This document shows, piece by piece, positions 24,810-46,934 of a DNA stretch of 64,000 bases (its first letter is position 1; the number at the start of each line of letters is the position of its first letter). A program made the translations under genes and the position numbers. This DNA is from Polytrichum commune (Eukaryota; Streptophyta; Polytrichopsida; Polytrichales; Polytrichaceae): positions 622,501-686,500 of the forward strand of contig OX485808.1 in NCBI GenBank assembly GCA_950295325.1, written 5' to 3'. Under the pieces are notes generated by a model, which had not been told where the DNA came from, did not search any database, and saw only the letters and a list, made by a program, of their open reading frames with translations.

Positions 24810-24898
24810 GACATCATGCCCGGACGGGCTTCGGGGGTTGCCCGCGAAAAAAATTGGGGAGCGGACCGCCGTGTCCCGAAAAATAGCTTGTGCCTGTG

Positions 24899-24944: not shown

Positions 24945-24965
24945 AAACGGTAACAATATTATAAC

Positions 24966-26875
24966 CGGTCCTAATATTGCGCAACAATGTTCATGTTGCC
25001 CTTATGTTGCGCAACAATTGCTCATTGGAAATTCTCTCACTTCCATCACAAACATGGAGGGAAAACATGAAATTCACCAATTCCTACATGCAAAATCCTT
25101 GCCAAGAGTCAACCAGAAGAGATTCTCGTCTCCTGCCTTTGCTGATTGCATCCATGGTGTCATTGGAGTCTCTAGTCTCACAAAACGGTGGAACCCTACT
25201 CCGGATTTTCTTGTGATTCATTGGATTTCTTCGTGACCGGTAAGCATTCTGATGTATCGCCTACGAGGTGAAGAATTTTTCTTAAGTGAGAATTGCGTTT
25301 CTGTACGAAATCAGTAGTAGCTTCCTGATCGATATATGATCAAACATTCAGATGTGTGGGAGCTTTGAATTGAACAATTCGGATATGTTTTGGAGTCTTC
25401 AAGGGCTTGAAGTACGAGCTGCAGTCCAAATGTAGGGTTTGACATGCATTCATACATAGATGCATTCATAGGTTTCGCAGTATTTGCATCATACATAAGT
25501 CTTTGCTGCGTTAGGAGCCTTTATCTCGCAAATGCAGACATCAGCACTGAAAAATTCTTTCCTAGACACAAACATAAGAGATTGTCGTCTACCCTTGCAA
25601 AATATACTTCATTGGAATTGATTTCTCTAGTCTCAGGAGACGGTGGAATTCTACCCCGGAGTGATCAGCAGTCTAAATTTAGGGTTGAGACCACCACAAG
25701 TTTGGCATGCATTCATCCATTAGAGCTTAGTGCACGCAATGATAAAGGGATTAGTAGTAGAGGCAGCTATGGCAGAGAGTAGCAGGAGCGGATTGGCAAG
25801 TGGATTATATCGACCTACAATTCGCCATTTTTTCTCATGGTCAAGATTTTGCAGTATTTCTATGTGCTCCAGTAGGAGTGTTTTTCTTTTGTGGTTCTGC
25901 GAGCAACAAGAAGACGCCTGCAACTTTCCTTATCGCAGTGCCAATGGGCATAATAACCAAATCCAATAATTCTTGATTGTTTCATAACATACTGCGCATT
26001 GACGATCAAACCACTTGCAAATGGAAGAGGAAGAGGATCATCAGGACTGCGGCGCACCAAATTGGAATCAGCACTATATAGGGGGGAATGTTCTTTATGA
26101 AATCAAATGCGTGTCTTAACTTGTATGAACTGACAGTTTGGCCTACCTGATCCTTCCAAAGAGGGACCACCAAATCTATAAGTCCACCCATTTTCAGGGT
26201 AGGAGATTGCAATACATCAACTCATATGAAAAAAATTGTATGCCCAGAAAGAGATTTAAGTGTGCCCTGGAATACTCATCCTGGATGGTTTATGAAAATA
26301 CTTCTTGCAAGTTAGCATGTGATGCGTGGCTCTGTTTGCTATCACTTCATCCGTGATAACATAAATTGCAGGTTGAACATCAAAGAACTTCTGGGCAGAT
26401 GTTGGATCTCATCACCACCCCAGCTGGAGAAGTTGATCACATATGTGATCTTTATCTACTTCCTCATCAATAGTATATAGGAATGTGGATTTTAGGACTG
26501 AGGATGTATGATAATACGTAGCTTATGGTGTGATCGAATTTTTGATGTGAAGATTTTAGAATAAGGACCAGAATTCAATAAGGTCTAAGAAAGGACCCGA
26601 ACTGTGCAGTGAATTTGTACCTGTCTTTCAAAGAAATTCTTGCCATGCCCTAATATTGCGCAGTATTAGGGCGGCATTTTTAAATTCTAAAATATCCACC
26701 CCCTTGGTAATCGGGCAAGATTGTTTGTCTGGATTTCATCCGTTCTGAAATAATTTTTCTTGCATCCAAATTACGCATCATCCCACTAGATATTCCCAAA
26801 ATAAAATAAAATAAAATTCTAATTTTTTTGCCTGATATGTCTTGTCGATGTCAACACTGCGCAATATTAGGACCG
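24966..26875. mobile_element. TIR element with CGGTCCTAATATTGCGCA ends
   Basis: Perfect 18-bp inverted repeats at 24966-24983 and 26858-26875 bound 1.9 kb. A third, palindromic copy of the core, GCCCTAATATTGCGCAGTATTAGGGC, lies inside at 26647-26672. The interior has a diverged tandem duplication (about 25040-25230 and 25550-25680). No transposase or domain is visible, so it is non-autonomous. No clear target duplication was found. TTGCGCAACAAT also recurs just inside the left end. Confidence 0.68.
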
Positions 26876-28196
26876 TCTACCATACTCAACACTAGGCTTG
26901 GGAGTTACAGTGATCAACTTGTGCCCCGTGAAGCAATGGTTACTCATTGGGCACGTGATTACCAAGTAAAGTTTTTCTCAGTTTGGTGAAGCTTGTATAC
27001 ACTTGTATGCTCAGGCTCCAATACACCTTACACATGGTATATCCATGTGCAAGTTTGACGTCCCACAGTACATTGGGTGTTAATCTAGTTCTTCCTGATA
27101 TGAAGAAATGTTGTTGGAGTCTCCATACACTTTATGAATAGGTATTTTGGCTGAGCATGCATTTTGTGCTCTTCGATCTGGTAAGATAAAGTTGCTATAG
27201 TGTTTGGGTGAAGATCGGGCAGCCAAACAGCCCTCAACGGCTCCATGAGCATGTAGTATGAAAACTCCTTCCTTGGTGTGATGAAACCTGCACATAGAAG
27301 GAGAAACTGTATACATTCGTGTTGCAAAAACGAGAGGCACAAACCCTCATGTCCTGGGACCAGCTATTGATGTATTATTCCAAGCCACGGATATTATGTG
27401 GGCAAAATAATTTATGCAAACTGAGGTGTAGGTACCAAGACGTGTAATTTCACAGGCTAAACGACCAAGCCTGGCTCCTGCTACCAAGCAGGTGGGTGGA
27501 GGCATGTCACATAACGGATACTTGTCAGTCTTGCAAACTTAAACCAAAAGCACTCAACATCTACGGTGATGACCTTTTCAAAAGCATCTCATGCTATCCA
27601 ATCCCAGCGTTTTCCACTATTATGTAATCCTTTCCATCCCTACATCCGAAACAAATTGCAAAGCAAGCAAGCAAACTAAGTCACCCTTAATCACCTTGTA
27701 TGACTTCGATCAGAGAATAAGCAATGAAGATCTTTCCGTATTGGCTTATGATATTGCTCTCGTGCAAACCGATAAGGACCATAGGCATCCCCACTATTGT
27801 CAGTAGCATCCCTCTTATTATGATTTTGCAATACAAAGCCTCACAGCTCTACATATGTCTTTTGAGTACGCCATAGTCTCATACACACGAGGTTAAAGCT
27901 CCAAGTTTTGGTCCATAGTCTGTTCCGTCAGTATCCAGTGATCATAGGCCATCATAGTTAGTATGTGTCCACAACATGTTTCAAGGGCATCCCTCAGTTC
28001 TTAAAGGCGATTACTTAAAATGATAACACAATATTTGACATCCCTTTATCTCCACAAAACGGGCAAATTTAACATAATATTCAAGACTACATTATTGAAA
28101 TTTGCACAGAGTCTAGTTACAAGTCACATTAACTACGAAGCGGAGGCTAAGCGAATAGGCTAAATGAGATTCCCGGTCGAGTCCAACAGCGAGGCT
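26876..28196. other. No supported gene
   Basis: The stretch has mixed AT-rich sequence with short frames on both strands (for example 27080-27340 minus and 27591-27806 plus). None has a recognisable domain, splice context or repeat partner. From about 28140 it grades into the minisatellite at 28197. Confidence 0.3.
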
Positions 28197-28602
28197 ATGG
28201 TCCAAGTCACAAAAGTAGAGAGAGTCTAGTATCAAGTGGCAGTCAGTCACAAGTCGCAAGTAGAGAGTCTAGTTCAGTTTCAAGTGGCAGTCACAAGTAG
28301 AGAGTCTAGTTTCAGTATCAAGTGTCAGTCACGAGTAGAGTCTAGTATCAGTTTCAAGTGTCAGTCACGAGTAGAGTCTAGTATCAGTTTCAAGTGGCAG
28401 TCACAAGTGTAGAGTCTAGTATCAAGTGGCAGTGGCAGTCAATCACAAGTAGAGAGTCTAGTTTAGTTTCAAGTGGCAGTCACAAGTAGAGTCTAGTTTC
28501 AGTATCAAGTGACAGTCACGAGTAGAGTCTAGTTTCAGTTTCAAGTGGCAGTCACAAGTAGAGTCTAGTATCAAGGAGCAGTCACAAGTACGAAGTCTCA
28601 TG
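28197..28602 (+). repeat. Minisatellite array A: GAGTCTAGTNTCAAGTGGCAGTCACAAGT type
   Basis: About ten irregular units of 35-45 bases are built from AGAGTCTAGT, TTCAAGTGGCAGTCAC and AAGTAG. The array is followed at 28674 by a TATA-like TTTATACCTGC and then CTCCCAAACAATATGGGAC. The same order is seen after array B (31660-31860) and, with changes, after array C (39190-39740). This fits tandem repeats in the U3 part of an LTR. Confidence 0.75.
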
Positions 28603-28669
28603 AAGTAGTGCAGGCCATAGTCTTCACTAATAGAGAAGCGTCTAGTCACGACAGCCTAACTGGTCCTCC

Positions 28670-28715
28670 ATCCCTTTATACCTGCCCTTGTTTGCACTCC
28701 CAAACAATATGGGAC
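28670..28715 (+). promoter_or_regulatory. LTR-like core promoter after array A
   Basis: CCCTTTATACCTGCCCTTG, then ACTCCCAAACAATATGGGAC. The same pair, TTTATACCTGC then CTCCCAATCAATATGGGAT, occurs at about 31900-31945. The array C version is CCTTATAAACTTGCCC then CCCGAACGATATGGGAT at 39750-39785. Conservation of a TATA-like box and a downstream motif across several copies supports a shared promoter. Confidence 0.45.
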
Positions 28716-29759
28716 AAGACCCATCCAGTCTTCCTTCAGTTGGCTCCTCCTTTTGTTCACGACCCTTCGTCCTCCTCATTCGGCGTTCTGCTTCGCGATC
28801 CTATTGGCCTCATTGAATTCCATCCCCTTCACCTGCGATCAGTCTGGGGGTTCTCCACAGGGTTGTATTTGACTCCATATAATTTGAAGAGTACATCCCG
28901 CAGTCATCGCTCATCATCAATCTCATTCAATCATCGAGATCTCACTGGAAACAATGCAACCCTTCACGCTTTGCAACCGAACAACAATTCTCAATTCCAT
29001 TGACTACCGATATGAGCAAGATTGATATGACCATCTCCCAATGACCTAATCGAAACAGAACATGGCATCAAATCAGATGTCTTGCAAATTATTTGGAGTT
29101 GTGTATTTATTCCATAGCACAACAATTATAGGTTCACCCAAATTCCTCAAGGGCAATCTATAGGTCTCCCAAATTCCGATGATCACCTTTGGATCAAGCC
29201 CACTGGTTGTTGTATCCATATCCAAAAATCCTCCTGCATCCATCCACTTTTTGCTTTGTAGATGGATGCAGATGCACAGGTTGCCATGTCTTCATCTGCA
29301 ATTGGGGTAAACTTCATAGAGTTCATGTTTTATTCCAAAAAACCATGGTCAGGAACTCATCAATTCAAATAGTAGTCCCCAATTAACCTCCACCAATCTT
29401 CCTCTTCTCCCAAACGTCGACTACATTCTTCTGCTCATTCATGCATTGCAATCAGAACCTTCCAAAGCCATCTACAGCTCCATCAATCTTCTTCTTGAGA
29501 GTTTATATGAAAGGTACATGGGCCTTATTTAGTAGCTTTTGTTGGTTTGTAACTTACAATACTTGGATTCATGGTGTTCAAGTTTATGCTCGTCTGCACA
29601 CATGTACATGAAGGAGCTAGGGGTAACGCTGCGAAGTCCTTGAACTCGAATCATATTGATATGGATTCGAGCAAGTCCACTCACAGGGTGCCATAAAAAG
29701 ACTATGGCCGATGCCCTGCAATTATGTTCACTATATTCAGCCTAGATCGCCAGTGAATG

Positions 29760-30560
29760 GCGCCTTAAACCCATATCGTTTGGGTGAGGGCCGAGAGGCA
29801 AGGATATAATGAGGGTCTTTTTTATCCTATTGTGTACACTAGGGCTGGGACTAGGTACTCAGACAATGGTCCAGACTACTTGCTACTTGGGTCACTCACT
29901 TAGACTATGGTCCAGACTACTTGCTACTTGGGTCACTCACTTAGACTACTTGCTACTTGGGTCACTCACTTAGACTACTTGCTACTTGGGTCACTCACTT
30001 AGACTACTTGCTACTTGGGTCACTCACTCAGACTATGGTCCAGACCTACTTGCTACTTGGGTCACTCACTCAGACTATGGTCCAGACTACTTGCTACTTG
30101 GGTCACTCACTCACACTATGGTCCAGACTACTTGCTACTTGGGTCACTCACTCAGACTATGGTTCAGACTACTTGCTACTTGGGTCACTCAATCAGACTA
30201 TGGTCCAGACCTACTTGCTACTTGGGTCACTCACTCAGACTATGGTCCAGACCTACTTGCTACTTGGGTCACTCACTCAGACTATGGTCCAGACCTACTT
30301 GCTACTTGGGTCACTCACTCAGACTATGGTCCAGACCTACTTGCTACTTGGGTCACTCACTCAGACTATGGTCCAGACTACTTGCTACTTGGGTCACTCA
30401 CTCACACTACTTGGGTCACTCACTCAGACTATGGTCCATACTACTTGCTACTTGGGTCACTCACTCAGACTATGGTCCAGACTATTTGCTACTTGGGTCC
30501 CTCACTCAAACTATATGGTCCAGACTCCTTGACAATTGCCACTCGGGTTACTCAGATCAT
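29760..30560 (-). repeat. Minisatellite array D, about 17 units of 29-43 bp
   Basis: The unit on the + strand is ACTTGCTACTTGGGTCACTC, then ACTCAGACTATGGTCCAGAC. About 17 units run from 29878 to 30530, with shorter 29-bp units at the left and decayed relatives out to about 30840. Read on the minus strand the array is followed by GGCCCTCACCCAAACGATATGGG (29763-29785), matching the motif after array C. So it is the same LTR-like family in the opposite orientation. The unit lacks stops in all three + frames, so three overlapping long frames (29957-30842) are artefacts. Confidence 0.8.
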
Positions 30561-31659
30561 GACTATGGTCCAGCCTACTTGACACTTGGTCCACCCCACC
30601 ATGGACATTTGTTACTCAAACTATGGAACTGCATACTTATTTATTACTTGACACTTCACACTTGGTGGCACTGGTTAGTTGCTAATTGGATACTTGCTAC
30701 TGAAGAGTTTGGAATTGAAGTGAGACACAGTACTCAGACTATGGTTTACAGGTTTACTGGTTACTCAGGAGTTGTTACGAAGACCATGGAACTGCATACT
30801 TACTTGATACTGATGTACTCAAGACTATGGAGTTGGACCTAGAATCTGGTGACTTAGTTTCCGCTCGATTAGCCGGTTCGTAGTTCTTGTCACTCGTTAC
30901 TACTCTTGTCAAATTCCGCCTTTAATATAAGTTCATACTGATTTTGGTCCGACAGTTATCGGTGATTGACGTCGACAAACCTTTTTTTTGTGTGGAGCAA
31001 GCCCCCCTAATTGCACTTCATAAGTTTATGGGTGCGGGTATGTTGGATGCACAATATCTTGCTGAAATTATCTCATGCCCTTCATTCATAAGTTCACTTC
31101 TCCATGGGAAAACTACAAGGTGTACATTCCTCATTCACCAGCTCACAGTGATCACCCTTTCAAGACTGACTCTCTCTCTTTTGGAATCCTCTTCCAAAAA
31201 TTAATCTCACAATTTCATCCAAATAGCTCTTCAACCTTGTTCCATGCATGAAGCACTTTAATCCAACATCATGATTCTCGTACTTACTCACCCATCAAGT
31301 CATTCAAATGAAAAAAAGTTCACAATCAGAGTCTACAGTAATTGCGAACTTCACACCCTTATGTGAATATTGTGGTTAGGTTTGTAGGGTAGGGTTCAAA
31401 CTCCGAAAAACCCCAGGGAAGACCAAATGAGTGTCAGATGTATCTCTAGTTTGTCACGATAAGGTTAATTGATAGGTTAAAACGTTTATGGTATGCTTTT
31501 GACAGTCAATTAACTTAAAATTTACTCCCTCATTTGCACTTGGTTATCACTTGCTAGGATAAATTAGCTTATAAGGAGTAAATTACTTAGCCACAATTTT
31601 ATATCTCATGAACTCTTAGTGCTCATAAATAAATTATCATGCTCTTATGTTTAACAAAA

Positions 31660-31945
31660 GTCTAGTAACGAGTGACGGGAACATAGTCTAAAGCGTGCGA
31701 ACCGGCCTAGGATAGGACACGAGTCTAGTAGCGAGTATCGAGTCAAGAGTCTACAGTCCAGAGCCACAAGTAGACAGTCTGAGTTCCAAGTAACAAGTAG
31801 ACAGTCTGAGTTCCAAGTAACGAGTCTAATCACCAGTAACCAGTAGCGAGTCTTGTTGTGTCATGAGAAGCGTCTGAACACATAGTCTCTGAGGTGAGAT
31901 AGGTTTTATACCTGCACTAGGTGGGGCTCCCAATCAATATGGGAT
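31660..31945 (+). repeat. Minisatellite array B and LTR-like promoter
   Basis: Irregular AGTCTAGTAGCGAGT and CAAGTAGACAGTCTGAGTTC units (31660-31860) precede TTTATACCTGCACTAGG and CTCCCAATCAATATGGGAT. This matches the order downstream of array A. It is probably another partial LTR of the same family. Confidence 0.65.
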
Positions 31946-34204
31946 AAGTGGGTGCGCTATCCTCTCCTCAGCTCTTCCTTCAGGATCTCCCGCGTTCGCT
32001 TCTACAGCGGTTCCCCCACGATTTGAAACACGATCCTCCTCGCGACCGCTTAACCTGAGATCTATCTTCGGAAACACCATGCTTGACACGTAACAGGGGT
32101 CACAGATTTCCAAGGAAGACGAGCATTCTTCATTCCTTGCAAACTTTCAAGTTGGGCAATTTCAGAGCACAATCGAATCTCCCAGCCATTGTGATTCAAC
32201 CGACTCCTGCTCATTGAACGAATAGAAGTATTGAGGAAAAGTTATTACTTATATCCTCTTCTAGGAGCCGGTACAGGGGAATTACTTTCTAGAAAGTGAT
32301 AATTCGACAGAAGAAAATGGTGGCTCAATCCTCTTCAGGGAACGAATTCTCATGCTCGGTTGTGAGGATGTACTGGGTTTGCTTTGACTGGTGCACTTAG
32401 AATTCATCTCATTGATTATGATGAACCCATAATAATCTACTTACTTCTCAACATTGACACTTCGGGATGAATTTAGGAACCGAAAGATTCGCTCTTTCCA
32501 TCCCCACATCCACACTGTGAGATTCTACACACGGGTAATTCAAATATTCTTTCCATCAGTACAGCAAGTGTTGATTCTGTGACTGGTTTGAAGATTTGTA
32601 GAGGGAATTAATTACGCATGACACTGATTTCACGCATTCATGGAAGCTTTTTGCTTACAACAGAAACTCTCGGAGAACATCGGACAATCTCCCTTTAAAG
32701 ACACCAGAGGGAACTACAGTGACTTCATTCACCTGACTGCCTCAACTAATGGTGATGAGTAAAACCATGAGGTTAATTACTGAAAACATGAATAAGTCAG
32801 CTTAGTTCAAGCCCCGAAATTACATCAAAATCACTGAGAGTGTCATAGTCAGAAAACCATGGTTGAACTCACAAAGGGAATTATGGGGACTAGGGAATAT
32901 ATTCTCACTTATGTAGAATTCACATTCTTCCACCCGAGTTTCACACCCACAATATTTCCTCTCTTCCATGCAGAGAATATAACCAGCGACCAAGATAATG
33001 AATTAAAACTTCAGAATGCTGGTGTTTAAAAAGTACGCACTGATTACACAGAGCAAATGCTTCACGCCAGTCCTATTCTTACACAATAATTTATGATTTC
33101 AGGAAATACACTCTCTTCCCGAGAGGGTTTGTTTATTCCCATTCTCCTTGCGACTCAAAACTTCCAATTGACAAACGACCTAATCTCCCATTCAACACGT
33201 CATATGAGATTTATGATCGATCTCACTTACTGTCTATGGCCCTACGAATTGCTATCGTGCAACTATTACTTAAGTTAGACTACTTCCAACTCCAAGTGAT
33301 ATGTGTAATAGCTTGCCACTAATTTTGCTTTATAAAGTGACATTTGTCTGTCCATATCAACTAAAAATACCGAATGTCATCAAAACCCAAAATTTTTGGT
33401 AGACATAGACCCCTCCTTTACTTGCTGGAGGCCCTCCCAAGTCGAGGACGTTTCACCAATTCTCTTCTTCCTTCCTGATCGTCATCCTAACGCCCCTGAC
33501 TCCTTGATTTTGAGTGTTGTCGGGCCTCCTTCGCCTCCTGTCGGAGTACAACTCGTTGTAAATCTTCATCTCGTGCTACCGCTTGTGGATCGTTATTCCG
33601 TTGCCATTTGAGAAATCTTTCGAATGGCCCAGCTCGAGCAAAAGGGAACTCGTTGATTTAAACAAAAATTATGCGTTTCCTTAATGGGGGCCTAACTACA
33701 CACCAATCAAATTCCTCAATTGGGTCCAACCAAAGCAGCTAAAGAGTGCACTCCTGAATAGTGGACGCGTACCTTATACAACACAACTAAGACAAGGTCG
33801 ATTGCCAAGAGACCAGAAGCACTTCGGCAATTACACTGTGATGATAGTGCATTTTGCAAGGCTTCCATGTAGCTCTCACTGTGGAAATATCTCCTCATAT
33901 GTCTGTCACAAATACTAGTCCAGACTCACCGGACTCAATGTCAATTAATTGCAAGTGGAAACCAGTGCAGTCTTCAATATATATGTCCAGTCCAGGCTTC
34001 AAATGAACATTGTTCACGTACCAACATGGGCTGAGGAGGGCAAAGGCCAATACATATATTAATTGTAAAATTCGGGTTGCAACGACAAAATCAATGTACT
34101 TGGCTACGAAGCAAAATCAAAATACCTTCAAAATGCACCCACACTTCCAACACAATCTAATAACCCATCGAATGGGGCCCTTGTAGCGAGGCCATTGATG
34201 TCAG
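31946..34204. other. No supported gene
   Basis: The stretch lies between the array B LTR-like segment and the 3' end of the HECT gene. Short frames occur at 33093-33278 and 33396-33611 (plus) and 33716-33898 (minus). A minus-strand Arg/Gln-rich reading near 33600-33420 looks weakly coding but contains a stop. It may include the interior of the retroelement that owns array B. Confidence 0.3.
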
Positions 34205-34459
34205 TCAGATGAGGCCGTACCCCTCGCAGTTTGCCGTAGCCATGCTCAATTTCCGCGCCATCAGCTCCTCGTTGTCATACAGTGGCATGTACAGAGTGTT
34301 GAAACATGTGGCCGACGTTGGCAATTTCTCTTGAGACCATTCTGGCTTCCCAATAATCCTTATCGCTGCGTAGTGGAAGTACCGAGAGTCGGTGATGAAG
34401 AATAGTAGGTTTTGGAGCTCGCCGACGGGCAGGCCTCGCACGCATGCCTCAAATCGATT
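34205..34459 (-). CDS. HECT gene exon 6: HECT C-lobe with catalytic Cys
   Basis: 84 codons and a TGA stop. FFITDSRYFHYAAIRI is followed by LPTSATCFNTLYMPLYDNEE and a C-terminal EGYGLI. The Cys in ATCFN aligns with the thioester Cys of HECT ligases, and the terminal hydrophobic EG(F/Y)GL pattern is also kept. Confidence 0.75.
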   Translation of the reverse strand, partial: NRFEACVRGLPVGELQNLLFFITDSRYFHYAAIRIIGKPEWSQEKLPTSATCFNTLYMPLYDNEELMARKLSMATANCEGYGLI

Positions 34460-37400
34460 CTGCATTTTACCATTTACATGACACGTGTGAGCATTGTGAT
34501 TGATTGCGCATATTAGCCCAACAAAGACTGATTACACTTATAAAAGGCATTGGGTTCTGAGAATAATTACTTGGACGGCCTTCTTCATGTTCACGTACGC
34601 GCAAGTGCCCAAGAAATCTTCGACATCGAGCCCCAAGTCCGCTCCAAATACGGGCTCATAAAATTGTGGCGACCCCCGGAATTTTTCTTTTGTCTGCACG
34701 ATGCTCTTCTTTTGAGTAAGTGTCAGGTCTTGGGACTCGACGATGTTGTCGATGCAGAAAGTGAATCCTGCATTCAAAGCCTCCCCTACTGCCGCACAGT
34801 CTAGGAACAACCACTTGTAGACTTGGGTCTTCCGCAGTCCCTCGATGGCTTCTACGAATCCAGGCCCTGGTTCTAACTTCATGATTGACCAAGCCAGCTC
34901 CGGGCAGTCTTGGACTGCCACCGAGTCCAAGGCCCTCCGCTGTGCATCTACGTCATCAACCAAGAGTTGCTTGAATGCATTATGAACTGAGGGCTTGTAG
35001 GCAATGAAGTCAGCATCCCATGAACTCAGGGTCGGGTCATCTGAGCTCAGGGGGGTGGACCCACACGCAAACGCCATTGTTGCTTTGATAAAGGGCCTGC
35101 TTACACGGACTCCTTTCAACATCAACAAGAACATGAACCACCCCACAAACATCAACTCTGAACGCATCTTCGAGGTCAACTGGCCATTTTGCGTGGGCCG
35201 CAAGTGCAACGCATGTCCACACTCAGCCCTGGAAAATATGTCCATGCACATCTGCACACGGTTCAAACCATACGATGATTATCTGCTCGCTTGCCCTATC
35301 CTAGTTCATGGCAAGCCAACATTGGAGCAGCCTAAAACGATCATACCAACATTTTTGAACGGGTATATAGTACAAATTGGGAACTAGAATTGTCACGGCA
35401 TTTGAGCATTGAAATGATGGACCAACTCATTCGCATTCTTGGCCATGAAGTTGCCAAGTGGAACTCACCCCCATGTTGTCCCAATATTGGAACCATGCAG
35501 TGGACAGAACGCGCTTGGTAGGCCCCCCGCAATCACAGGTTCCCGACTCATTCAGGTCGAACCCTTCATCTCCGATTGTGTACTCGACATAGAATGGCAG
35601 CATGACACCTCCTTTTTTTTGGCTCTGGCTGAAGTATTCCCTTAATGCTCGCAACTCCTCTCCTGCACGGACCTGGCCCATGTGCCCCAAATATCAGAGA
35701 ATGAAATGTATTGACGTCACATCATAGTTAGTGTGCATCTCAAGTTTGGCGACAATAAACGAGTCATGCCTACAAGCTAGTTTGTCCATCCAGATCATTG
35801 CGGGCTATCATGACATGTTCTGGTTAAGGCGTATTGTACTTACTGGAAGGGGTACGACTGGGAGTTTCAGGAGTGCTGCTCGATAGTCACCTAGAGTCTC
35901 ATAGCGGATTGCGCACAGGCGGTAATAATTCCAAGCTTCATTCCGGTTCCTGTATGCAACCAAGTAATCAATCTCCTTGTTCCGAGCCCCCCCGGTCGAT
36001 TCGGCTTGCCTCCAAGTATGCAGCCGAGCCACCACAGCCTCCATTGAGGCCTTGTCTCCAACTGTTGTTGTCACTCTGCTGCCCAGTTTCTCGCACACTT
36101 TCTCTGCCGACCATACTTTGACATCATCTTCAGGGAAGCACTTTTCGAGGATGTCCCACACCCACCAATCTGGTTGTGCGATGGCATTGAATGCTGCCAC
36201 AATGAACTCGGTGTTGTAGGCATGCATTGATGGGCACTCGCGGAGAGTGGCAACCTCGTTAGTGATCATATGTGGTGTCAGCCCTCTGCAACTTCCGCGG
36301 CGCCGGGCAAGTGTTGTTATTACCTGCCCCTCCACGGTGTCCTCACAGCTTAGCCCAAGTTCAGCCTCGAACGCTTTCCAAAATTGCTTTCTGGAGGCCA
36401 CTACTGCCAACACCTCGTCCTCGACCGCTTGTGCAACCGATCCCTGCCACACAGCCACACCGTCACACTCCCAAGCGCAGAATTCGTGTCCAAGGATACC
36501 ATGGACATATGAGGATACACAGAGGTTTTGGGTTATTATTGTGCTTACATGTTTCACTGGCTCATTGAGATCCAGGACATCCGCAGTTTGTGCTTCGCAT
36601 GCCGTGTTATACTTCAAGTCAGCAGCCATGAAAGCATCCTCCGCCTCTTGCAGTGCATCGGCAGCTCTGTCTGCACCCGCTGCAGGGCCACTGCGCAGAG
36701 GTCGTTGCATATGTGTGGCCCTCGGCACGTACTCGCTGGCATCGGAACTAGTCCCTCTGCTGGCATCGCTGTCAAGTTGGAGTTGCTCATCGACGACTGG
36801 CATGGCACATGCAGACTGAGCTCCACGGTGTGCGGCCGATCGTGAGCCACCTGTGGGAGGGGATATCGCAGACAATACATGGACAGAGTCAGAGTCGTCG
36901 GATGAGGCATCACTCCAAGGGCTCCGCTGAAGTGGGGTGCACACGCGAGCTCCGGGCCCGTGGTCCAGGCCATACTGAGGGGTTCCCACAATGCCGGATT
37001 GTTGAGTGCCTTCGAACCCACCACCTGCCTCATTGACGCAAAGCTTCGTGCCGTTTTGGGCGGGCATCGATGTCCGGGCTAGGATTGGTTCTGATGCGAC
37101 CCACTACACGTCACGTGCCTCCACGTTGCGGGCTTGAGAGCACCACACATCGCCAACCTGCGATTGAGTCGTGGACGAAGTTGCGTCCCTGTGTGCGGAT
37201 AAGGAGACTCCACTCAGCGTCGCCCTACGTCTCCTACTTGCACAATTGCTGCCACCGCCCTCAGCATGGAAAGGGTGTGTGAATGTGGGATCGTAGGCGG
37301 AGTGTCTTGGTACCGCTGGGGGTGTGATGGTCATGGTGTCTTCGTCGTCGGATTCTTCAAGATTGCCAGTACTGTCGATCAATAGTGGGTTGGGGGTGGA

Positions 37401-38561
37401 CGATGTCCCAACCTCCCCATACATGTTGGGGCTAGTGGGAGCGCCTGGTCGTAGTGGCAACTTCAAGGAGCTGATGCGCCCTATGTGTAGGGCATATTGG
37501 GCCACTTGAGACGGCATGAGTTGCCCTGGAGGATCGGGCACATAAACCACGGCCACAACGTTTGCTCGTCCACCAACGTCCTTGAATGTCGAACCAGCTG
37601 CCATGACAAACGGTTTCGCGAAATCAACGCAGCCGATTGATCCCGCCTGCATGGAGGGCACACACCAAGATTGAAGCCTATCGAGTATTTCAAGTATATT
37701 TTGAAAGATCTCAATGTCATTTGCAAAGTAGTCGAAGTATTTGCAAAGCCATGCAGCTTGGAGCTCAAACTATTTGTGATGCAATAATGATGCATTAAGT
37801 GAGAGCACAAACATTTGGCATATTGTTCAGCATAATAGATTGTGACTAGCCGAACATGAATTGTTGGGGTACTATACCGATTTGCGCTTTGGGACAACAT
37901 GGTAGAAGAATCCCCCAATGTGAGCAAGCCTGGGATCATTGTACTTTGTTGCGGTGGCCTCTGCCACAGCCTTTTGTGTTGTGCCTTTTGGAAAGGGTCC
38001 GGGGCCAAGCAAAAATGGTGCCCAGGGTGTGGCGGGGTCAACTCTCACTTGGAGAGGGTCCTCTGTCAATGACCTCACCACTATTTGTGTAGCACCCTCC
38101 ACGCACACAGCCTCCATACGATGGGGCAACCCGAACACCTTCCTCACTGTATATTGCTTCGGTCTTGGCGATGTCCGAAGAATGTGACGCAACGGCGGTG
38201 TCCTTGCTCCATACTGGTCTAGGAATGCGGCATCATTCACCAATTCTGCGCAATCCACCACCGAGTGGGGAGGGGGCGGTGTGTTCGACGGATATGCGTG
38301 AATGTTCCCCACGGTCGGTACGAGAGTGGCTGCTCCGTCCAGCCGTCTGGCATCCCTGCCAGTTGGCGGCGGCTGCGGGTTGTTCGTTAGCCTTGGCACA
38401 GAAGGCCCCGCACTGGTGCCCCGTGACATTGAGGGGGGTGCCCCCTGTCGTGCTCGGCGGCCCCCTCCACGTGGTGACATCCCGGGTCCCATCCACCTGC
38501 CAAGACACTGCAATGACAGGCATGACAAGGAGCATCTTAGCGCGTCTAGTATAGTGGGCAT
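34205..38561 (-). CDS. HECT-type E3 ubiquitin ligase-like gene, six exons, one in-frame TAG
   Basis: Exons on the minus strand: 38561-37878, 37646-35844 (with TAG at 37106-37104), 35672-35469, 35251-34571 and 34459-34205; if an intron hides the TAG, six coding segments. Every junction I could place has GT-AG ends and is phase 0: TCG/GTATAG, CCA/GTAAGT, GGG/GTGAGT, CAA/GTAATT, with CAG acceptors. The product is about 1,200 residues. The C-terminal third is a HECT fold: DCGGPTKRVLS (start of the N-lobe), ELMFVGWFMFLLML, then the C-lobe with LPTSATCFNTLYMP, where Cys is the ubiquitin-accepting residue, ending EGYGLI. HECT enzymes receive ubiquitin from E2 on this Cys and pass it to a substrate. 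The N-terminal 800 residues match no family I know. The start could also be Met at 38492, since an acceptor-like TTGGCAG lies between. The TAG suggests a young pseudogene or an unmodelled intron. Confidence 0.75.
34571..35251 (-). CDS. HECT gene exon 5: HECT N-lobe
   Basis: 227 codons in phase 0 between GTGTGCAG and CAA/GTAATT. ELMFVGWFMFLLMLKGVRVS corresponds to the F..iGr.lg helix of HECT N-lobes. Downstream VDDVDAQRRALDS and FTFCIDNIVES follow the family pattern. Confidence 0.65.
35469..35672 (-). CDS. HECT gene exon 4: start of HECT N-lobe
   Basis: 68 codons in phase 0 between GGCCAG and GGG/GTGAGT. It carries GDEGFDLNESGTCDCGGPTK, which matches the G.DG.D.GGP.RE signature at the start of HECT domains, with a short insertion. 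Confidence 0.65.
35844..37646 (-). CDS. HECT gene exons 2/3 (middle region, contains TAG)
   Basis: One frame runs 601 codons from the acceptor at 37647 to a consensus donor (CCTTCCA/GTAAGT), interrupted only by TAG at 37106-37104; the frame reads on immediately as WVASEPILARTS. The part before the TAG has an ordered start (VDFAKPFVMAAGSTF, ANVVAVVYVPDPPGQ) and a Ser/acidic linker. The part after it has a low-complexity linker, then helices (EAELGLSCEDTVEGQVITT, DWWVWDILEKCFPEDDVKVW). An acceptor-like TATCCCCTCCCACAG near 36850 could belong to an intron that skips the TAG, but no phase-matched donor is obvious. Confidence 0.55.
37878..38561 (-). CDS. HECT gene exon 1 (unknown N-terminal region)
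   Basis: 228 codons, Pro/Arg/Gly-rich at first (PRGGGRRARQGAPPS), then a more ordered part (VRKVFGLPHRMEAVCVEG, YHVVPKRKS). It ends in phase 0 at TCG before GTATAG. The intron of 231 bp ends CCTCCATGCAG at 37647. The alternative start at Met 38492 drops 23 residues. Confidence 0.55.
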
Positions 38562-39189
38562 TGAATATAATTACGTTCTTGCACACTACCGTTGAACAAT
38601 CACCTATATTTGAGTGCCTATTCAACAATTCTTGCAACATATTTGGGTACGCCGAAGCTTACAAACTATGTGGAAATGTGCGAATGTACTGTCTAGATAT
38701 TCGTGGTCGACGGCCAACTACCACCCCCGAGCATCCAAGTATACAAATGTTCATTGAAGTGAAACTTCAAATTCCGGTGCTCTCATTTCGTTGTCATGTT
38801 GACCAAATTCGTGCATTGACCTACACCATGAAATCAAGTTGTGAGATGACCAATACAGGTGGATTAGAGGTAAATTGTCATAGTGATTGTATAAACTTGA
38901 CGTTAGTATTTTTGGCACCTATTTTTAGCCCCTTCAAGTCATAATGCTCAACCACTCTGGTATGACTCTTTTTTCAAAAAATTCAAAAATAAGGTTGATG
39001 TGATTGAGACTTTCCATACTTTATAGGATAGGTGAAGACAAAATAGTCATTTCAACTGGGCACACAACGACTCTCGTAGTCCGAAAACGAGTCTTTAATT
39101 TACTGAATATAAAACCTTTCCCTCTCTGACCCAATTGATATCAGTTTTGTCAACTAAGTAAGTCCATATATGTAATTTCTCTATATAGC
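38562..39189. other. Upstream region of the HECT gene
   Basis: About 630 bases between the HECT gene start and array C. It has a short + strand frame (38561-38944) that overlaps the first exon in antisense and shows no domain. The HECT promoter should lie here, but no clear TATA was found. Confidence 0.3.
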
Positions 39190-39790
39190 AAAATTAAGAG
39201 AGTTGCCGCAATTAACAAGCAGTCTAGTAACCAGTATCCAGTAGTCAGGTATCTGAGTATCTGTCACATAGTCTAATTCGAAGAGACCATTGTCCAGAAT
39301 GTCCGACCATAGTCTATAAGTATTGGTAAGAGAGTTGCTGCAATTCACAAAAGTCTAGTAAGTGATAAAGGTCTAGTAAGCATTGGTCACTAAATTCCCC
39401 AAACCATAGTCTAAATCGGCGAGATCATTGTCCAGCATGTCCGAACAGAGTCTTTAAGTATCGGTAACAGTCCCATGTGTCACTAAGCTTCCCAGACCAT
39501 AGTCTAAGTAGAAGAGACCATTATCCAAGATAGCCGACCATAGCCTGTAAATATTGGTAACAGTCCCGTGTATCACAAAGTTCCCCAGACCATAGTCTAA
39601 ATGGAAGAGACCAATCTCTAGCATACACAGCCATAGTCTATAAATACCGGCGATAGTCTCTTTATCTGATCCCGTGTCGCAAGGCTATAGTCTTAGAATC
39701 CAGTAATAATCCATGCTTTCTTGTAAGTTAGGGTGAGTCTTGCCTTATAAACTTGCCCATCGGCCCTCACCCGAACGATATGGGATAAAG
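39190..39790 (+). repeat. Minisatellite array C and LTR-like promoter
   Basis: Irregular units include CCATAGTCTAAGTAGAAGAGACC, GTATTGGTAACAGTCC, and CCCCAGACCATAGTCTAAAT, with about six CATAGTCT cores. They are followed by CCTTATAAACTTGCCCATCG and CCCTCACCCGAACGATATGG. The last motif matches the minus-strand end of array D. This is probably the U3/R part of a partial LTR lying between the HECT and F-box ORFs. Confidence 0.65.
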
Positions 39791-40924
39791 GACACGGCTC
39801 AGACACACACGTCCACCTTGGTTCTCTTCTTAGCGATGTCCCTTAAAATTCCTCCACTCTCTTTTCCTTATTTCCAACTACGGTATCCTGTTGTCAAAAT
39901 TGTGTTGAAGCTCTAAAGGATGACTTATGTGCTATGCCGAGATTGTCTGCCAACCGGGTAAGGAGACCCCATAATCTTATCTTCTCGTGTCAAACCCCAC
40001 AACTAATTTTTTTTCCAACGCATCATCCTTGGCCCCGGTGTTTGAAAAAAGAGTGGACAGCGAGAAATGTGCTCATAATACATCTGGTTGTGTCCAAGCT
40101 TGTACCATAGTTGGTTGTGTTCAGAACTTCATTAGCTATAGCAACGACAAAGTCACACAAACATGGATCCCAATAAAACGCACGCACTCTGAGACATACG
40201 AATATGTCAGCTAAAGTAGCACAAATTTGACTCCAACATAGTACCTATGACTGAGAATGAGAAGGGCTTCATCCTTGGAGGTTCAAGGATCCTTAGCAAC
40301 TACTTCAGCACACTTGAGAGATGTCATTTTTTGCTATGTATTATCAGTGATTAATATGTCAGGTGTAAATTTACCTGCTTTCGACAGTTACAACAGCGCA
40401 GTTTCAATTGCACATGTCCTCATTGTGCGTTGTGCTGAAATCGCGTCTCCAATACTTCCTTTACCATCGGTACCTGCCCACATGTGAATTGATTACCACC
40501 GTTAGAGAATGCCCTCGCTTCATCTACTGACTGGTTTCAGTGTATAAACTTGATGATAATCCCAACTAGAAAATTCAGTTTCTGCGTGAGAGTGGACACA
40601 ATAGAGCTTCCAGTTTTGAATCTCTTCAGCCCACAAGTCCCCCATCCTATTCCATAGAGGTCATGACCTGGCCTCGGAGCCTCCTTTTTGCATCGCATAC
40701 TTTCTCACACTACGATTTGAAACACGGACCTGCACAGTCCACTGCCTGACAGAGAATAGGTCCCAAAATTGCTCATGACATCGACGAGGAACTAACACAG
40801 GATCTGAGTGATCAGTTAAAAAGAGTTGCATTTTGTTAAACTGGATAGAGATGAGATTATGCATGGAGCAAAGGCTATGTACCTGACGGTAGCATTGTAA
40901 GCCATGACATGTGCTAAAAATGGA

Positions 40925-41224
40925 CTAATCAGACGCGATGCCATCGTCGCTAGATGGGAGCTCCTCAACGAAGTTAAGCCACAGAAACATCCGAAATTCC
41001 TCTTCCTCCTGCTCTAATTCAATGGCAGCATAATACAACTCCTCAGTGTCATCAATCGTCTTCTTCCAAGCCAAAGCAACACACCGCAGTGTTGCCAACA
41101 ATCGCATACGTTCGAGGAGGGGGCGTGTCATGAGAATGTGGGGCAAGATGTGAGCCTTCACCAAATCGTCTGGGAAAGGGGCCAATAAGCATTGCCTATC
41201 GCGACCTCCACATTCGTCATCCAT
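40925..41224 (-). CDS. Small F-box-like protein or exon
   Basis: 99 codons, ATG at 41224 to TAG. Residues about 17-62 (FPDDLVKAHILPHI...LRCVALAWKK) follow the F-box pattern of LP.dLv..IL...P...L...r.Vc..W. An acidic helix (EELYYAAIELEQEEEEF) and SSDDGIASD follow. F-box proteins link substrates to SCF ubiquitin ligases through Skp1. The protein has no substrate-binding repeats, so it is either a short adaptor, a first exon, or a relic. It lies 2.4 kb upstream of the HECT gene on the same strand. Confidence 0.42.
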   Translation of the reverse strand: MDDECGGRDRQCLLAPFPDDLVKAHILPHILMTRPLLERMRLLATLRCVALAWKKTIDDTEELYYAAIELEQEEEEFRMFLWLNFVEELPSSDDGIASD

Positions 41225-41837
41225 CCCTAGCCGAAGAATTGTTTTTCCAAATTGATGACGTAAGTCCGTTATCCTGTAAACAAGTGCTGTTTATGAAAGT
41301 CAATCGATTTTGAGACCTCAGTGCCACGTAATCAATTGCAGATGATGGGACGATTCATTACATATGCCCCATGCGCACACATTTACGTGGATGCCGATGT
41401 GACAAGCAGTACCATGTAAGTTGTACAAGGTGGGGCGAAGGACATTGTGCACTTGTGGGGAGGTGGTCATCGTTGCCGCCCAATTTCAAAGCAATAAAAA
41501 AAATGGATCATATGTGGACTTCGATGGCTAATGATGGCATCCTATCTACACGATGCCTAATGATGGCAGCCTATGTACGCTGAGGCTAAGGAGGGCATCC
41601 TAACAATTGTTTAACGAGGATTACAATCCTTGATCTCACATTCAAGCATACTTTGGAGTGACCTTCAAATAATATGACAACATTATGCCACTTGTCAGAT
41701 GCCACATCGATATAATGAGCGTACTTCCCTAACTCATAGGTAAAGGTAATAACCTTTACCGCCTTCACACCTTACTCCACAATACTAATCAAGTGCTTAT
41801 GGAAACTATACCTGTTGTCCTCCTTGTCAAAAGCTTC

Positions 41838-42130
41838 TAATGCCCCCTTACCACTCGACTTACGGTAAGACTAAAAGAGGGTTCTAACAACCCGGCCTTC
41901 ACACCTTGCTTGGATCCATTGCCAAAAACAGATTGTTGGATTGGTTGGGATGTTTTAAGGTAGAAATGGGAGGGTCGGTGCTTGAGGCTTGAAACGTCCA
42001 CTTTTAAGTCATGCCAAGTCATTTGCCCACTAAGGTCGGCACGATGTAATGTTCACCATGTTCTGAAGGCCGGGTTGTTAGAACCAACTTTTGAGTCTTA
42101 GCTAAAGTCGAGTTGGAAGGGGGCATTAAT
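41838..42130. mobile_element. MITE with ATGCCCCCTT(A/C)C ends
   Basis: About 65-bp inverted repeats: AATGCCCCCTTACCACTCGA...GGTTCTAACAACCCGGCCTT on the left, and the reverse complement with AATGCCCCCTTCCAACTCGA on the right. The flanks allow a TA target duplication (TA at 41836 and 42131). The interior, read on the minus strand (GTGCCGACC...GGCAAATGACTTGGC, CACCGACCCTCCCAT), is homologous to 52950-53030 and to 54780-54880. Confidence 0.7.
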
Positions 42131-43509
42131 ATTGTACATTAACACATATGGTGTTTTGTGTAATTGTGGTAACTCTTCTAATGACATTTCTTAATAATTT
42201 GTTGAGAAGTATTGTTATCCCAATTTACTTCTAGTTCATCCAAATCTCAATTATGAAACAAAGTTTGGTAGAATATCCATCCTAACATTTAAGTGACGAA
42301 ATATTGGCACGAATGATTGAAATTTGGGTGAAAATTTGCTTAGTAAGTGACAGTAACTGCAACATTGTAAATCCAAAATGCCCAATTTTCCTTGCAAGGA
42401 ATGACAAGTAGTTACATTTACCATTTAGTGTTGGCGGCACTACACAAATGGTTTGCAATTAGTATTGAGGAAGACAAATAGGAATTGGTGATACTAATTA
42501 CACTATTTAGGATTAAACCAACGATGTATTATGTAAATGTTGTGTGCATATCTTTAATTTGTTTGTTGATTTGTATTGGTGGGATGTTGATGGTCTTATG
42601 AGTGATATACAATGTATTGGTCAAAAGCCAAACCACATCATCATGCATATTTAACAAGAAAACGGTAGAACCGCGAGGCTCTGTCCTTTGCTATGAAAGA
42701 CTACAATTGTAGCTGATTACTTTGCTCATGCCAATCCATGGTTATTAACTATACCAAACCTTCCTTGGATTTTGTGCACCTTCTTCTCAAATACGGGTCA
42801 AGGATTGAAGCTACTCATTTATCACCCGAAAATTTTAAAAATAAATAATCAAGAACTGCCGAAATAACTATAGTTAACTAGATTTCTTTCAATGCATTTT
42901 AGGGAGCACTTATATATATATAAACTATAGTTAGCATCCACATGAAATAAAGTGGACCAAATATAACAAGAACAAGTAATGTTCAAGTGTGAACACAAAG
43001 TGGTTAGGAAATTTGCTCTTGAAACGAAGAAGTTGATGCATAGTCTCTATCCTACAGACAAAACCAACAAACCCGGGGGCATGAATGACAAGTTCTTAGA
43101 CTTGTCTACTTTTATTTAGGGCCGGTTTAGACTAGGAGTCAAGGCTCAAAAATGGGTTGGGGTGAAAGAAATCCACTCCTCTCATTGGTAGAGAGGTTGG
43201 GACTCGCCTCTTCAAGTTTACACCATGAGTTGGGGCCAATTAACAAATAAATTATTTGATTCATCATGACAATGGCCTCAAGTCTTGGAAAAGAGAGCTC
43301 CCAACCTTGTGGACTCTTTCCCTCTAGTTCATGCCTTTGTCATAGCTTTTATTTGCTTGTAGTAGTTTATTCTTTGAGCATTGAATAGGAGGGGAGACAT
43401 TCTAAATTTGTTATACTTTAATCAAATACGGGTCAAGTAATTGTCAATTGTCAGTTGGTTGGCACATGTCACATTGCTTAATATAACTAGTTCAATTCTG
43501 GCACCAATA
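42131..43509. other. No gene; diverged MITE copy at about 42290-42520
   Basis: 42290-42520 is a diverged relative of the interior of the 48480-48857 MITE (shared GTGACnGTAAnTnCAACANTG, TAGTGTTGGnGnCACTAC). The rest to 43509 is AT-rich with no supported frame. Confidence 0.5.
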
Positions 43510-43767
43510 CAGTCTAACCTTGATAATGTCACCCTTGTTAATAGAACACCTTGATATTGTCACCTAAAAGTTTGAAACCGATTTTCATAGTGTAAAACTC
43601 CCTCGTTATTATCCCTATCACCCTTGATAATGTCACAATTTTTTTCAAAATCCGTAGTGTAAATGTGATAATATCAAGTATGGATGGATTGTATGGGTGG
43701 GCATGGGTTCGATATTATTGTTCATGGGTGAGCATGGGCTAAAGCAAAGCATATTGGGGGTCATTGA

Positions 43768-44784
43768 AAGGAACGATTGAAGCTTGTTTTCATTCACAAA
43801 GCAGTGTGTCCCAGATGCTTTCCTCGGAATTTTGATCCAAATAGGACAGTACACTATTATTCTAACAATTCAGCCTGGATGAATGATGATGTTTTTACAC
43901 ATTGGGTGAAGAGTGAGAACCGAAGAATGGCATTGAAAGACAGAAAGATTTGCATTATTATGGATAATGCAGGAAGCCATGATATTCATGGTGAGGTCAA
44001 GAAAGTTATAGATGGGTTTAATGCTTTTGTACTCTCCCATATCACTATCTTGTTCCTTCCACCAAATGTGACTTCAGTTGTTCAGCCTTTGGATCAAGGA
44101 GTGATTGCAACATTCAAAATGTGTTATAAGCGCAAGCTTGTTGCCTGGACTTTGCAACAAATTGATAACAACTCAAATGAAGATTTGGGGAAATTGAATG
44201 TTGATGTATTTCAAGCTATGCTATGGTGTGTGGCGGCATGGCATGAATTAGATGATCAAACCATTAGAAATTGTTGGAGAAAGTCCGCCATATTGCCTGC
44301 AGAGTGGAATGCATATATAAACAATCTTGATGAACGTGTGAAGTCCAAAATGGAGGAAGCAACTTTGGAATTGGGTAGACTCATCGCCGCATTAAATTTG
44401 GGTTTGGATGTTGAAGGCAAGCCTGTAGAAAATCTTTGTCCTTTGGAGTACATAAACATGGAAGGTGAAGATGATTTTGAGGTGGAATTTTCTACTGAGG
44501 AGCTTGTGCAATTAGCTTAAGATGGCGAACAGGTTCTTGATTCCATGGAAGTGGACCCATTGATTGTTGATAGCAGTGATGATGAGTCTAAAGTAGTGAA
44601 GCTAAGCGATGCACAAAAATATGCTAAAGATGTTTTGAATTTTATGGCTAGCCAAGGTTCTCAGATTTTCAGCACTCATGAGTTGTTAGAAATGGAAAAA
44701 ATCCATGACAAATTCATTAGAATTGGTGTTGCACATTTAACATCAACAAAACAATGTGACATTAGAAAACACAATATTCATTAA
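43768..44784 (+). pseudogene. Pogo/Tigger transposase, 5' truncated, one in-frame TAA
   Basis: The frame is open from after TGA at 43765, and no ATG starts it. It reads HYYSNNSAWMNDDVFTHWV, then ICIIMDNAGSHD (second catalytic Asp), then FLPPNVTSVVQPLDQGVIA (third Asp), the DDE_1 order. The first Asp and the DNA-binding N-terminus are missing. TAA at 44518-44520 interrupts the frame, which continues in the same register as DGEQVLDSMEVDPLIVDSSD and a helical tail to 44784. It would have cut and pasted the element in the nucleus; as it stands it cannot act. Confidence 0.8.
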
Positions 44785-44913
44785 AATGAGAGTTTTCCAG
44801 TGAATTGAGAGTACATAAAGCAAACTATTAATCCAAGAATGAAATGAAAACCACTGGAAAGTTGTAGAGTACAAGTAAAAAAATAACATTTGATTTTCTG
44901 CCATAAATTCCGC

Positions 44914-45531
44914 TGTAGTTTCCATTAAATTGAGAGTATGTTAAGCTGGGAAATCGACTCATTTAGGTCGATTCAACCTAAATTGACAACATATTGTCAT
45001 CATTAAGGTTGACTCAACCTAAATTGACTAACATAATTGTCCTCATTTAGGTCGACTCAACCTAAATTGACAACATAATTGTCCTCATTTAGGTCGACTC
45101 AACCTAAATTGACAACATAATGTCCTCATTTAGGTCGACTCAACCTAAATTGACAACATAATGTCCTCATTTAGGTTGACTCAACCTAAATTGACTAACA
45201 TATTGTCCTCATTTAGGTTGACTCAACCTAAATTGACAACATAATGTCCTCATTTAGGTTGACTCAACCTAAATTGACTAACATATTGTCCTCATTTAGG
45301 TCGACTCAACCTAAATTGACTAACATATTGTCCTCATTTAGGTCGACTCAACCTAAATTGACTAACATAATTGTCCTCATTTAGGTCGACTCAACCTAAA
45401 TTGACAATATAATGTCGTCATTTAGGTCGACTCAACCTAAATTGATAACATAATGTCGTCATTTAGGTCGACTCAACCTAAATGAGTCGATTTCCCAGCT
45501 TAACATACTCTCATTTTAATGGAAACTACAC
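44914..45531. mobile_element. Palindromic MITE-like array (13 units of about 42 bp)
   Basis: The outer inverted repeats of about 65 bp read TGTAGTTTCCATTAAA(T/A)T, GAGAGTATGTTAAGCTGGGA, then AATCGACTCATTTAGGT. Between them are about 13 units of 41-43 bp, CATTTAGGTCGACTCAACCT then AAATTGACAACATAATGTCC. Each unit holds a near-perfect 21-bp palindrome (TTTAGGTTGA-C-TCAACCTAAA type), and the unit ends GACA...TGTC. The whole element can fold on itself at every unit. It has no coding capacity. It is not CRISPR: there are no unique spacers, and the spacer-like part is repeated too. Confidence 0.8.
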
Positions 45532-45550
45532 GTCTGAAGTATAATCTAGT

Positions 45551-45626
45551 ATTTATCAACCTAACATGACTTTTAGGTTGATAAATGGCCAATATTATTT
45601 TGAGAGGATCCCACTCTCTCAAAATA
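45551..45626. repeat. Two adjacent hairpins
   Basis: ATTTATCAACCTAA (45551-45564) pairs perfectly with TTAGGTTGATAAAT (45573-45586) over an 8-base loop. TATTTTGAGAG (45596-45606) pairs with CTCTCAAAATA (45616-45626). The first shares the AACCTAA core of the neighbouring palindromic array. Confidence 0.75.
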
Positions 45627-46262
45627 TTGAATATCGTGTTAGAAGCTTCTTTGTCTCTAGTGAGAGGTCTTTACCTGATCTCAATGACACATTATGATGT
45701 GCTCTTGTGGTTATTCACAATTTTGAATTAGATTTTACATTCAAAAACATTGAAGTCTCGTATTTGTTATTTAAAAAATAATTTGTAATTATATTTTGAT
45801 TTTCTACATATTTTTTGATAATATCACATTATGCACAAAATGTGACATTATCAAGTATGTCACACCTTGTTTATATCACACTTTTTGGTGAAACGGAGGG
45901 TGTGACATTATCAAGGTTAGGGTCAATGTCCGGGGAGAACCGGTATTTAGTGTAATGGCGGCCGGTTGGTTTTGTGAAAAGTCCGGTTGGATTGGGAAAG
46001 TGGAGGATGTGAAACCGGTGCTTTTAAAAACAAATCGGATTTCAACCGGCAACCATTTTGAGGAGGAGGATTTTTACCCGGATGAATTGTGAAATAGGTG
46101 GATTTCATCCGTTTTATTCATCTAGGGCCGGATATCATCTGGTTCTAGGGTTTAGGTTATATGTTCGTTGTAGGCTTGTAGCGATTTGGTGAACGCCGGA
46201 CATACAAAGTTTTTGCTTCATTATTGCATTTCATTGTTGACGGCTAGTGTTTAGAATGTATT

Positions 46263-46900: not shown

Positions 46901-46934
46901 GCTCAAAAATCTCCCGAACCCTGGTTAGGGTGTA

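Follow-up and report, generated by a model that had tools for sequence, protein, structure and literature searches.

The HECT gene and the element that contains it

We analyzed a 64,000-nucleotide stretch of the Polytrichum commune genome (contig OX485808.1, here C6; hereafter the window), in which a HECT ubiquitin ligase-like gene lies on the minus strand inside a 73,597-bp element. The element (C6:647118-720714) begins at window position 24618 and runs past the window's last position, 64000. This copy is called A1, and exon and intron coordinates are window positions. Splicing and comparison of copies gave six exons of 684, 1098, 600, 204, 681 and 255 bases, separated by five introns, all in phase 0. 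The features of the element and of the gene were as follows.

24612..24617: near-side target-site duplication (TSD) GGCAAC, 6 bp, perfect; its partner, C6:720715-720720, lies outside the window
24618..24638, plus strand: terminal inverted repeat (TIR) TATGGAATACAATATGCACGG, the element end
24618..64000: part of the A1 element inside the window; the integrase gene and the far terminal repeat (ending at C6:720714) lie beyond
34205..34459, minus strand: HECT exon 6, C-lobe; catalytic Cys codon 34306-34304, stop codon 34207-34205
34571..35251, minus strand: HECT exon 5, putative diverged N-lobe; the exon end lies inside the Pfam HECT match
35469..35672, minus strand: HECT exon 4, putative start of the diverged N-lobe
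35844..36443, minus strand: HECT exon 3, pre-HECT region, alignable with a distant lineage (D, below)
36444..36548, minus strand: intron between exons 2 and 3, GT-AG, phase 0; splice ends common to subfamilies A and B (below), content and length differing
36549..37646, minus strand: HECT exon 2, containing an in-frame TAG at 37106-37104
37878..38561, minus strand: HECT exon 1, N-terminal region without a recognised domain; start codon at 38561 or 38492
C6:714825-715879, outside the window: A1 integrase gene, with stops in its first part

The genome was searched as 408 Mb in 64 contigs, and all whole-genome counts given here are lower bounds. Its plant nature was borne out by at least 19 matches to the RuBisCO small subunit. 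A query with the N-terminal region gave at least nine matches at eight loci, every one of them a HECT copy, and a query with exon 5 gave at least ten matches at nine loci, with a fragment at C2:26.09M as the ninth. The copies were grouped into three subfamilies.

Subfamily A: A1 on C6 (the window copy), A2 at C3:32.29M, A3 at C4:2.98M, A4 at C1:3.25M
Subfamily B: B1 at C2:31.76M, B2 at C5:44.09M, B3 at C4:43.60M
Subfamily C: one decayed copy at C2:58.59M

In the block around the HECT gene A1 shared 95.5-95.9% base identity with A2-A4, the B copies were 99.5-99.7% identical to one another over long blocks, and A and B shared roughly 73-87% identity in aligned blocks. The likeness between copies stretched far past the HECT gene, up to 20 kb in one alignment. 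Few copies and such long shared blocks would fit an ordinary family of segmentally duplicated host genes, with the transposon signals contributed by small nested elements. However, the 3' end was read for six copies (A1, A3, A4, B1, B2 and B3), and in each of them similarity ended at ...GTGCATATTGTATTCCATA, with differing flanks. In addition, all four HECT-bearing elements for which both ends were found carried a PF24764 integrase and a perfect 6-bp TSD just outside the TIRs.

A1: C6:647118-720714, 73,597 bp, TSD GGCAAC
A3: C4:2945602-2994335, 48,734 bp, TSD CTGTAC
A4: C1:3241636-3279691, 38,056 bp, TSD GATAAG
B2: C5:44087797-44148096, 60,300 bp, TSD CCAGAG

Barring an assembly error, these exact ends and TSDs refute a segmentally duplicated host family for A1, A3, A4 and B2, and we regard that explanation as a whole as highly improbable.

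The TIRs of A1 start TATGGAATACAATATGCAC..., and an imperfect likeness between both ends of A4 extends roughly 100 bp. The inverse of the 3' end, TATGGAATACAATATGCACNG, had 59 exact matches in the genome as compared to none for its backward reading, and many of them formed inward-facing pairs. With two mismatches allowed, the 19-base end had 110 matches against six for the control. A perfect 6-bp TSD flanked 11 of the 14 TIR pairs examined (A1, A3, A4, B2, a small pair named L031 and six of nine smaller pairs). The element lengths derive partly from nested insertions, and A1 has inserts without a counterpart in A4. For B1 the left end was not found within the DNA read. The likeness between B1 and B2 ends at C2:31742793 without a TIR at that point, while B2 continues to a TIR with a matching duplication, and B1 therefore seems interrupted or rearranged. 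A second, divergent terminal-repeat-like end was also seen inside B1 (C2:31747938-31747956), 2.2 kb from the integrase gene. The initial annotation, made from the sequence of the window, had offered spread by a mobile element as one option; the dispersed copies bearing exact terminal repeats and 6-bp duplications show such spread. Judged by its sequence context, the HECT locus is a gene of a DNA transposon and not an ordinary host gene.

Gene structure, protein and selection

The start codon of the HECT gene in A1 is uncertain, as ATG 38561 was kept among the A copies only and the similarity to B begins near Met 38492. The TAG at 37106-37104 was private to A1: no stop occurred at that codon in A2-A4 or B1-B3, and C was not alignable there. 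This stop makes a full-length protein from A1 impossible without read-through. A stop or frameshift was present in each of the HECT frames of A1, A2, A3 and A4, and the frames of B1 and B2 had no stops from their first methionines onward. The window copy is probably a dead, decayed member of a family that has open-frame copies elsewhere in the genome. Exon 2 of B3 carries an insert of ~260 bp with mutually inverse ends, resembling a miniature inverted-repeat transposable element.

Four GT-AG, phase-0 introns (37877-37647, 35843-35673, 35468-35252 and 34570-34460) had been annotated initially; their in-frame joins were reproduced, and in an alignment of eight copies A2, A3, A4 and B1-B3 retained the intron ends, the one exception being the intron-3 acceptor of A4, which has a small deletion. 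Some of these ends survive in the decayed C copy. That annotation was right that only phase-0 introns occur, but it had overlooked the fifth intron (36548-36444) and the TAG at 37106-37104. The contents of the HECT introns differ between A and B. Since the same intron positions recur in dispersed copies, the introns travelled with the element. Exon shuffling, offered earlier as a source of the uniform phase, was rejected in view of the presence of the same introns at identical places in better-preserved dispersed copies, and phase 0 alone says little.

The product of the window gene after the stop matched the Pfam HECT domain (PF00632) at 3.6e-15, with a score of 56.8 bits against a cut-off of 23.9; B2 (50.5) and D2 (45.6) also scored above this cut-off. 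The catalytic Cys of A1 lies in ATCFN and the protein C-terminus is EGYGLI; the profile match confirmed that the C-terminal part is a HECT domain. S(A/S)TCF was kept in A, B and D and aligned with the TC of HERC6. In a PDB sequence search the best matches of the C-lobe among solved structures were HERC6, UBR5, AREL1 and HERC5 (1.2e-07 to 1.4e-06). These are HECT E3 ligases that likewise have their catalytic cysteine close to the C-terminus, within a TC motif. The element's protein differs from these in its strongly diverged N-lobe and in an N-terminus without Pfam or PDB relatives. Of the two lobes described initially, the C-lobe is clear while the N-lobe is hardly recognisable, and a single-sequence structure model of exon 5 was poor (mean pLDDT 45). 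The part of A1 before the stop matched no Pfam family at E<=1, and the B2 protein matched none other than HECT at E<=10. No PDB chain matched the B protein's N-terminal 284 residues at E<=1. These scans accord with the earlier observation that the N-terminus lacks ARM, UBA, WW, C2 and RCC1 signs. The class-specific N-terminal domains of known HECT classes (NEDD4, HERC, ARM/UBA/WWE and plant UPL types) were likewise not found in the Pfam scans of the A1 pre-stop part and the B2 protein. The further suggestion was of an undescribed HECT architecture; the gene belongs to a transposon and does not represent a new HECT class of the host. One scan of viral contigs for relatives of the HECT protein gave 24 stretches fitting a pattern, of which none was confirmed.

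To measure constraint we compared nonsynonymous (dN) and synonymous (dS) divergence. Over 1081 codons of HECT the A1-B2 pair had a dN of 0.194 and a dS of 0.744, giving a dN/dS of 0.26 (bootstrap 0.22-0.31), with values for exons 1 to 6 of 0.41, 0.37, 0.21, 0.17, 0.16 and 0.10. The A2-B1 and A2-B2 pairs also had an overall dN/dS of 0.26 (exon 6, 0.12-0.13). Across the A-B comparisons the ratio was 0.36-0.41 in exons 1-2 versus 0.10-0.22 in exons 3-6. Recent copies carried little signal (A1-A2, 0.40; B1-B2, 0.53 from six silent and ten changing differences). The HECT protein is under purifying selection between subfamilies A and B. We infer that the gene was kept functional over the time separating A from B, while the window copy itself is now decayed.

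The integrase and the proposed role of the ligase

In A4 the integrase gene is in pieces; it lies close to the element's far end and runs in the opposite orientation to HECT. Its joined core matched PF24764 (Integrase core domain) at 3.3e-41. The gene also lies within A1, A3 and B2, and in B1 it is found on the far side of HECT. The residues taken as the second (D) and third (E) catalytic positions have 34 residues between them. Between A4 and B1 the integrase core had a dN/dS of 0.11 in its frame, with one stop codon in the compared stretch, and the N-terminal piece was less clear at 0.49. The genome contained at least 15 integrase loci (18 matches), eight of which had a HECT locus within 60 kb. 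About 0.08 pairs within this distance would be expected by chance for 15 x 19 randomly placed loci, a figure to be read with the provisos that the 60-kb limit was picked after viewing the data and that loci within A and within B are mutual copies, leaving fewer independent cases.

A distant lineage, D, was found at C7:31.587M and C2:33.389M, with an integrase core 45-46% like that of A4 and a HECT protein 25-26% identical to the A/B protein over about 590 residues. HECT and integrase are about 7 kb apart at the first locus and about 2 kb apart at the second. A genome search with the D protein gave at least 21 matches, mostly broken HECT pieces, one of which has an integrase piece 12 kb away (C1:62.32M).

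The HECT gene might instead have been captured from the host by transduplication and carried without benefit to the element. Other host pieces are plausible in these elements, since the B copies contain a RING-like open reading frame (ORF) whose Pfam matches are below cut-off. On the other hand, the N-terminal region occurs at HECT copies only (the nine matches at eight loci), dN/dS in the A-B comparison is far below 1 for each of the six exons, and the very distant second lineage likewise has HECT beside an integrase. We give capture a poor chance. The exact ends, the TSDs, the transposase linkage, the common exons and the purifying selection are best read as those of a resident element gene rather than of a chance capture.

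GingerRoot, described from Selaginella lepidophylla and belonging with IS3EU to a Repbase superfamily, is reportedly found in bryophytes and lycophytes among plants, and in animals; its elements are said to carry gene fragments. In the sections consulted, PMC10045372 treats IS3EU and GingerRoot as one lineage with TA..TA ends and a 6-bp TSD, and PMC12730594 gives the termini of fungal IS3EU as TAYGG..CCRTA. Both ends of A1, A3 and A4 read TATGGAATAC...GTATTCCATA and the far end of B2 reads TATGGAAG..., all of TA..TA and TAYGG..CCRTA form. As far as those sections go, the likeness extends to the termini, the 6-bp TSD, the DDE integrase and the plant host (PMC10045372, PMC12730594), and the element is best assigned to the IS3EU/GingerRoot type, by these published hallmarks (ends, TSD, DDE integrase) rather than by a tree. 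The HECT ligase gene sets the present elements apart; they span 38-74 kb, due partly to nested insertions. Polinton/Maverick elements carry their own DNA polymerase and capsid genes; no Pfam match to either was found among the ORFs submitted, a set outside which many element ORFs lie.

The part of PMC12730594 consulted also describes fungal IS3EU elements that carry a TET/JBP dioxygenase and an alpha-kinase, and the TET/JBP enzyme is proposed there to counter silencing. Those elements and ours would be transposons of one kind, each with a gene for an accessory enzyme in addition to the transposase (PMC12730594, same part); the cargo there is a dioxygenase and an alpha-kinase, whereas here it is a ubiquitin ligase in a plant host. 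VANDAL elements of Arabidopsis, with their VANC anti-silencing proteins, offer a functional analogy, as plant DNA transposons reported to have a protein that counters silencing. VANC is reported to bind DNA, while the protein of the present element is a different one, a putative E3 ligase. The VANDAL transposase also differs from that of the present element.

Taken together, we consider it likely that the element is a passenger-bearing cut-and-paste transposon of IS3EU/GingerRoot type and that its resident HECT gene encodes an accessory protein, with host silencing or restriction factors as the likeliest target. Its own DDE integrase-like transposase would mobilize the element, which would insert with a 6-bp duplication. 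The putative E3 would take ubiquitin onto the cysteine of ATCFN and hand it to a target picked by the N-terminal region. By analogy with the proposal for TET/JBP in fungal IS3EU, the ligase may eliminate host factors by which the element is silenced or restricted. Kept by selection, the HECT protein probably helps the elements to survive or move; that its target is a host silencing or restriction factor is our guess.

Several observations weigh against this reading. Three of the 14 TIR pairs had no TSD (C2:47115750, C7:21562035 and C6:37194162), many TIR pairs are ~5 kb long, and the only one of these that was fully read, L031, matches element DNA outside the HECT and integrase genes. Both D elements were searched for ends and none were found. 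The first part of the A1 integrase contains stops, the B3 integrase lies ~105 kb from the B3 HECT gene, the integrase genome search gave no match in the neighborhood of A2, and seven of the 15 integrase loci had no HECT match within 60 kb. The HECT N-lobe is strongly diverged: the Pfam match covers profile positions 193-305 only, and hhalign against host N-lobes gave a probability of 2.7% with an E of 0.017 for that single comparison. Owing to this divergence, E2 binding stays putative.

The main rival to a host-factor target is self-restraint, in which ubiquitination of the element's own integrase by the ligase would hold down copy number or set the timing of transposition. In each of lineages A, B and D the HECT and integrase genes are found together, as expected of an enzyme and its partner, and the copy number is low (at least nine loci for the exon-5 query). 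However, the N-terminal exons are less conserved than exons 3-6 (dN/dS 0.36-0.41 versus 0.10-0.22), and this faster change is a thin hint that the partner is one that changes and not a conserved transposase. We judge self-restraint unlikely, though less so than capture. A bolder form of the host-factor proposal, that the HECT E3 is an ancestral core gene of a major IS3EU/GingerRoot branch, removing host silencing or restriction factors, and that this is the first such DNA transposon lineage known, we advance only tentatively and hold to be doubtful.

Many HECT genes in fish and coral genomes are annotated as G2/M-specific ligase-like. No report of a HECT gene in IS3EU/GingerRoot elements was found among the titles and abstract openings retrieved, a search outside which Repbase reports and most subscription papers fall. 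The word HECT is absent from the main text of PMC10045372 and PMC12730594, no paper in the literature searched combined IS3EU with HECT, and HECT was not mentioned in the part consulted of the coral paper PMC12314368. Certain transposons have as cargo enzymes that are believed to reverse DNA methylation. The cargo enzyme in the present case comes from the protein-degradation system; it has been kept under selection and, in two distant lineages, accompanies a transposase of the same kind. Should the ligase act on silencing factors, it would offer a direct handle on the plant proteins that restrain transposons, because the substrate of a ligase can be sought biochemically. Among the HECT genes annotated in plants, some may in fact be transposon genes.

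Nested inserts and neighboring sequences

Two further features lie inside the element span.

43510..46932: insert in A1, absent from A4 at that point; contains the DDE_1 ORF 43768-44520 (plus strand)
57608..63187, minus strand: 1859-aa ORF with, by eye, the look of a Ty3-type polyprotein

ORF 43768-44520 matched the DDE_1 transposase family (PF03184, 2.8e-31), and the insert probably represents a pogo/Tigger-like element that lies nested within the giant one. Beyond window position 56047, A1 and A4 had no match of 250 bp or more. A 631-aa open frame next to B3 was closely similar to the 1859-aa ORF. Window positions 54826-56141, a candidate for a further coding gene, showed ~79% likeness in the A4-B1 comparison but were weakly constrained (lowest dN/dS 0.51) and contained stops; ORF 55131-56141 had no Pfam match at E<=0.1. 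A minisatellite at 29945-30842 keeps three overlapping plus-strand frames open, and similar repeats were seen in A3 and A4. The RING-like ORF is 183 aa long, occurs in all three B copies (Vps41-type match, 3.7e-4, below cut-off) and is possibly a captured host gene fragment.

Outside the giant element, a MULE transposase domain (PF10551, 1.2e-06) was detected at 19228-20136. Long proline/threonine-rich open frames, presumably akin to a LINE first ORF, extend over 20697-24809, and the giant element seems to have inserted there at 24617.

Among the other TIR pairs, L031 (C2:493081-497952) spans 4.9 kb with a 6-bp TSD and contains blocks 94-98% identical to A4 without a HECT or integrase match; it is likely a non-autonomous form. 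Four pairs are clustered at C6:37194162-37321178, with lengths of 12.7 kb (two pairs) and 10.4 kb (two pairs), and the missing TSD at the first of them suggests local duplication or rearrangement. An 11.6-kb pair at C1:1726104-1737726 (TSD CACATC) matched A4 at its ends only and holds, by eye, copia-like open frames. The insertion site of A3 itself seems to lie in a repetitive stretch that codes for leucine-rich repeats (with NCTSLTTIPEGLGNLSSL repeats).

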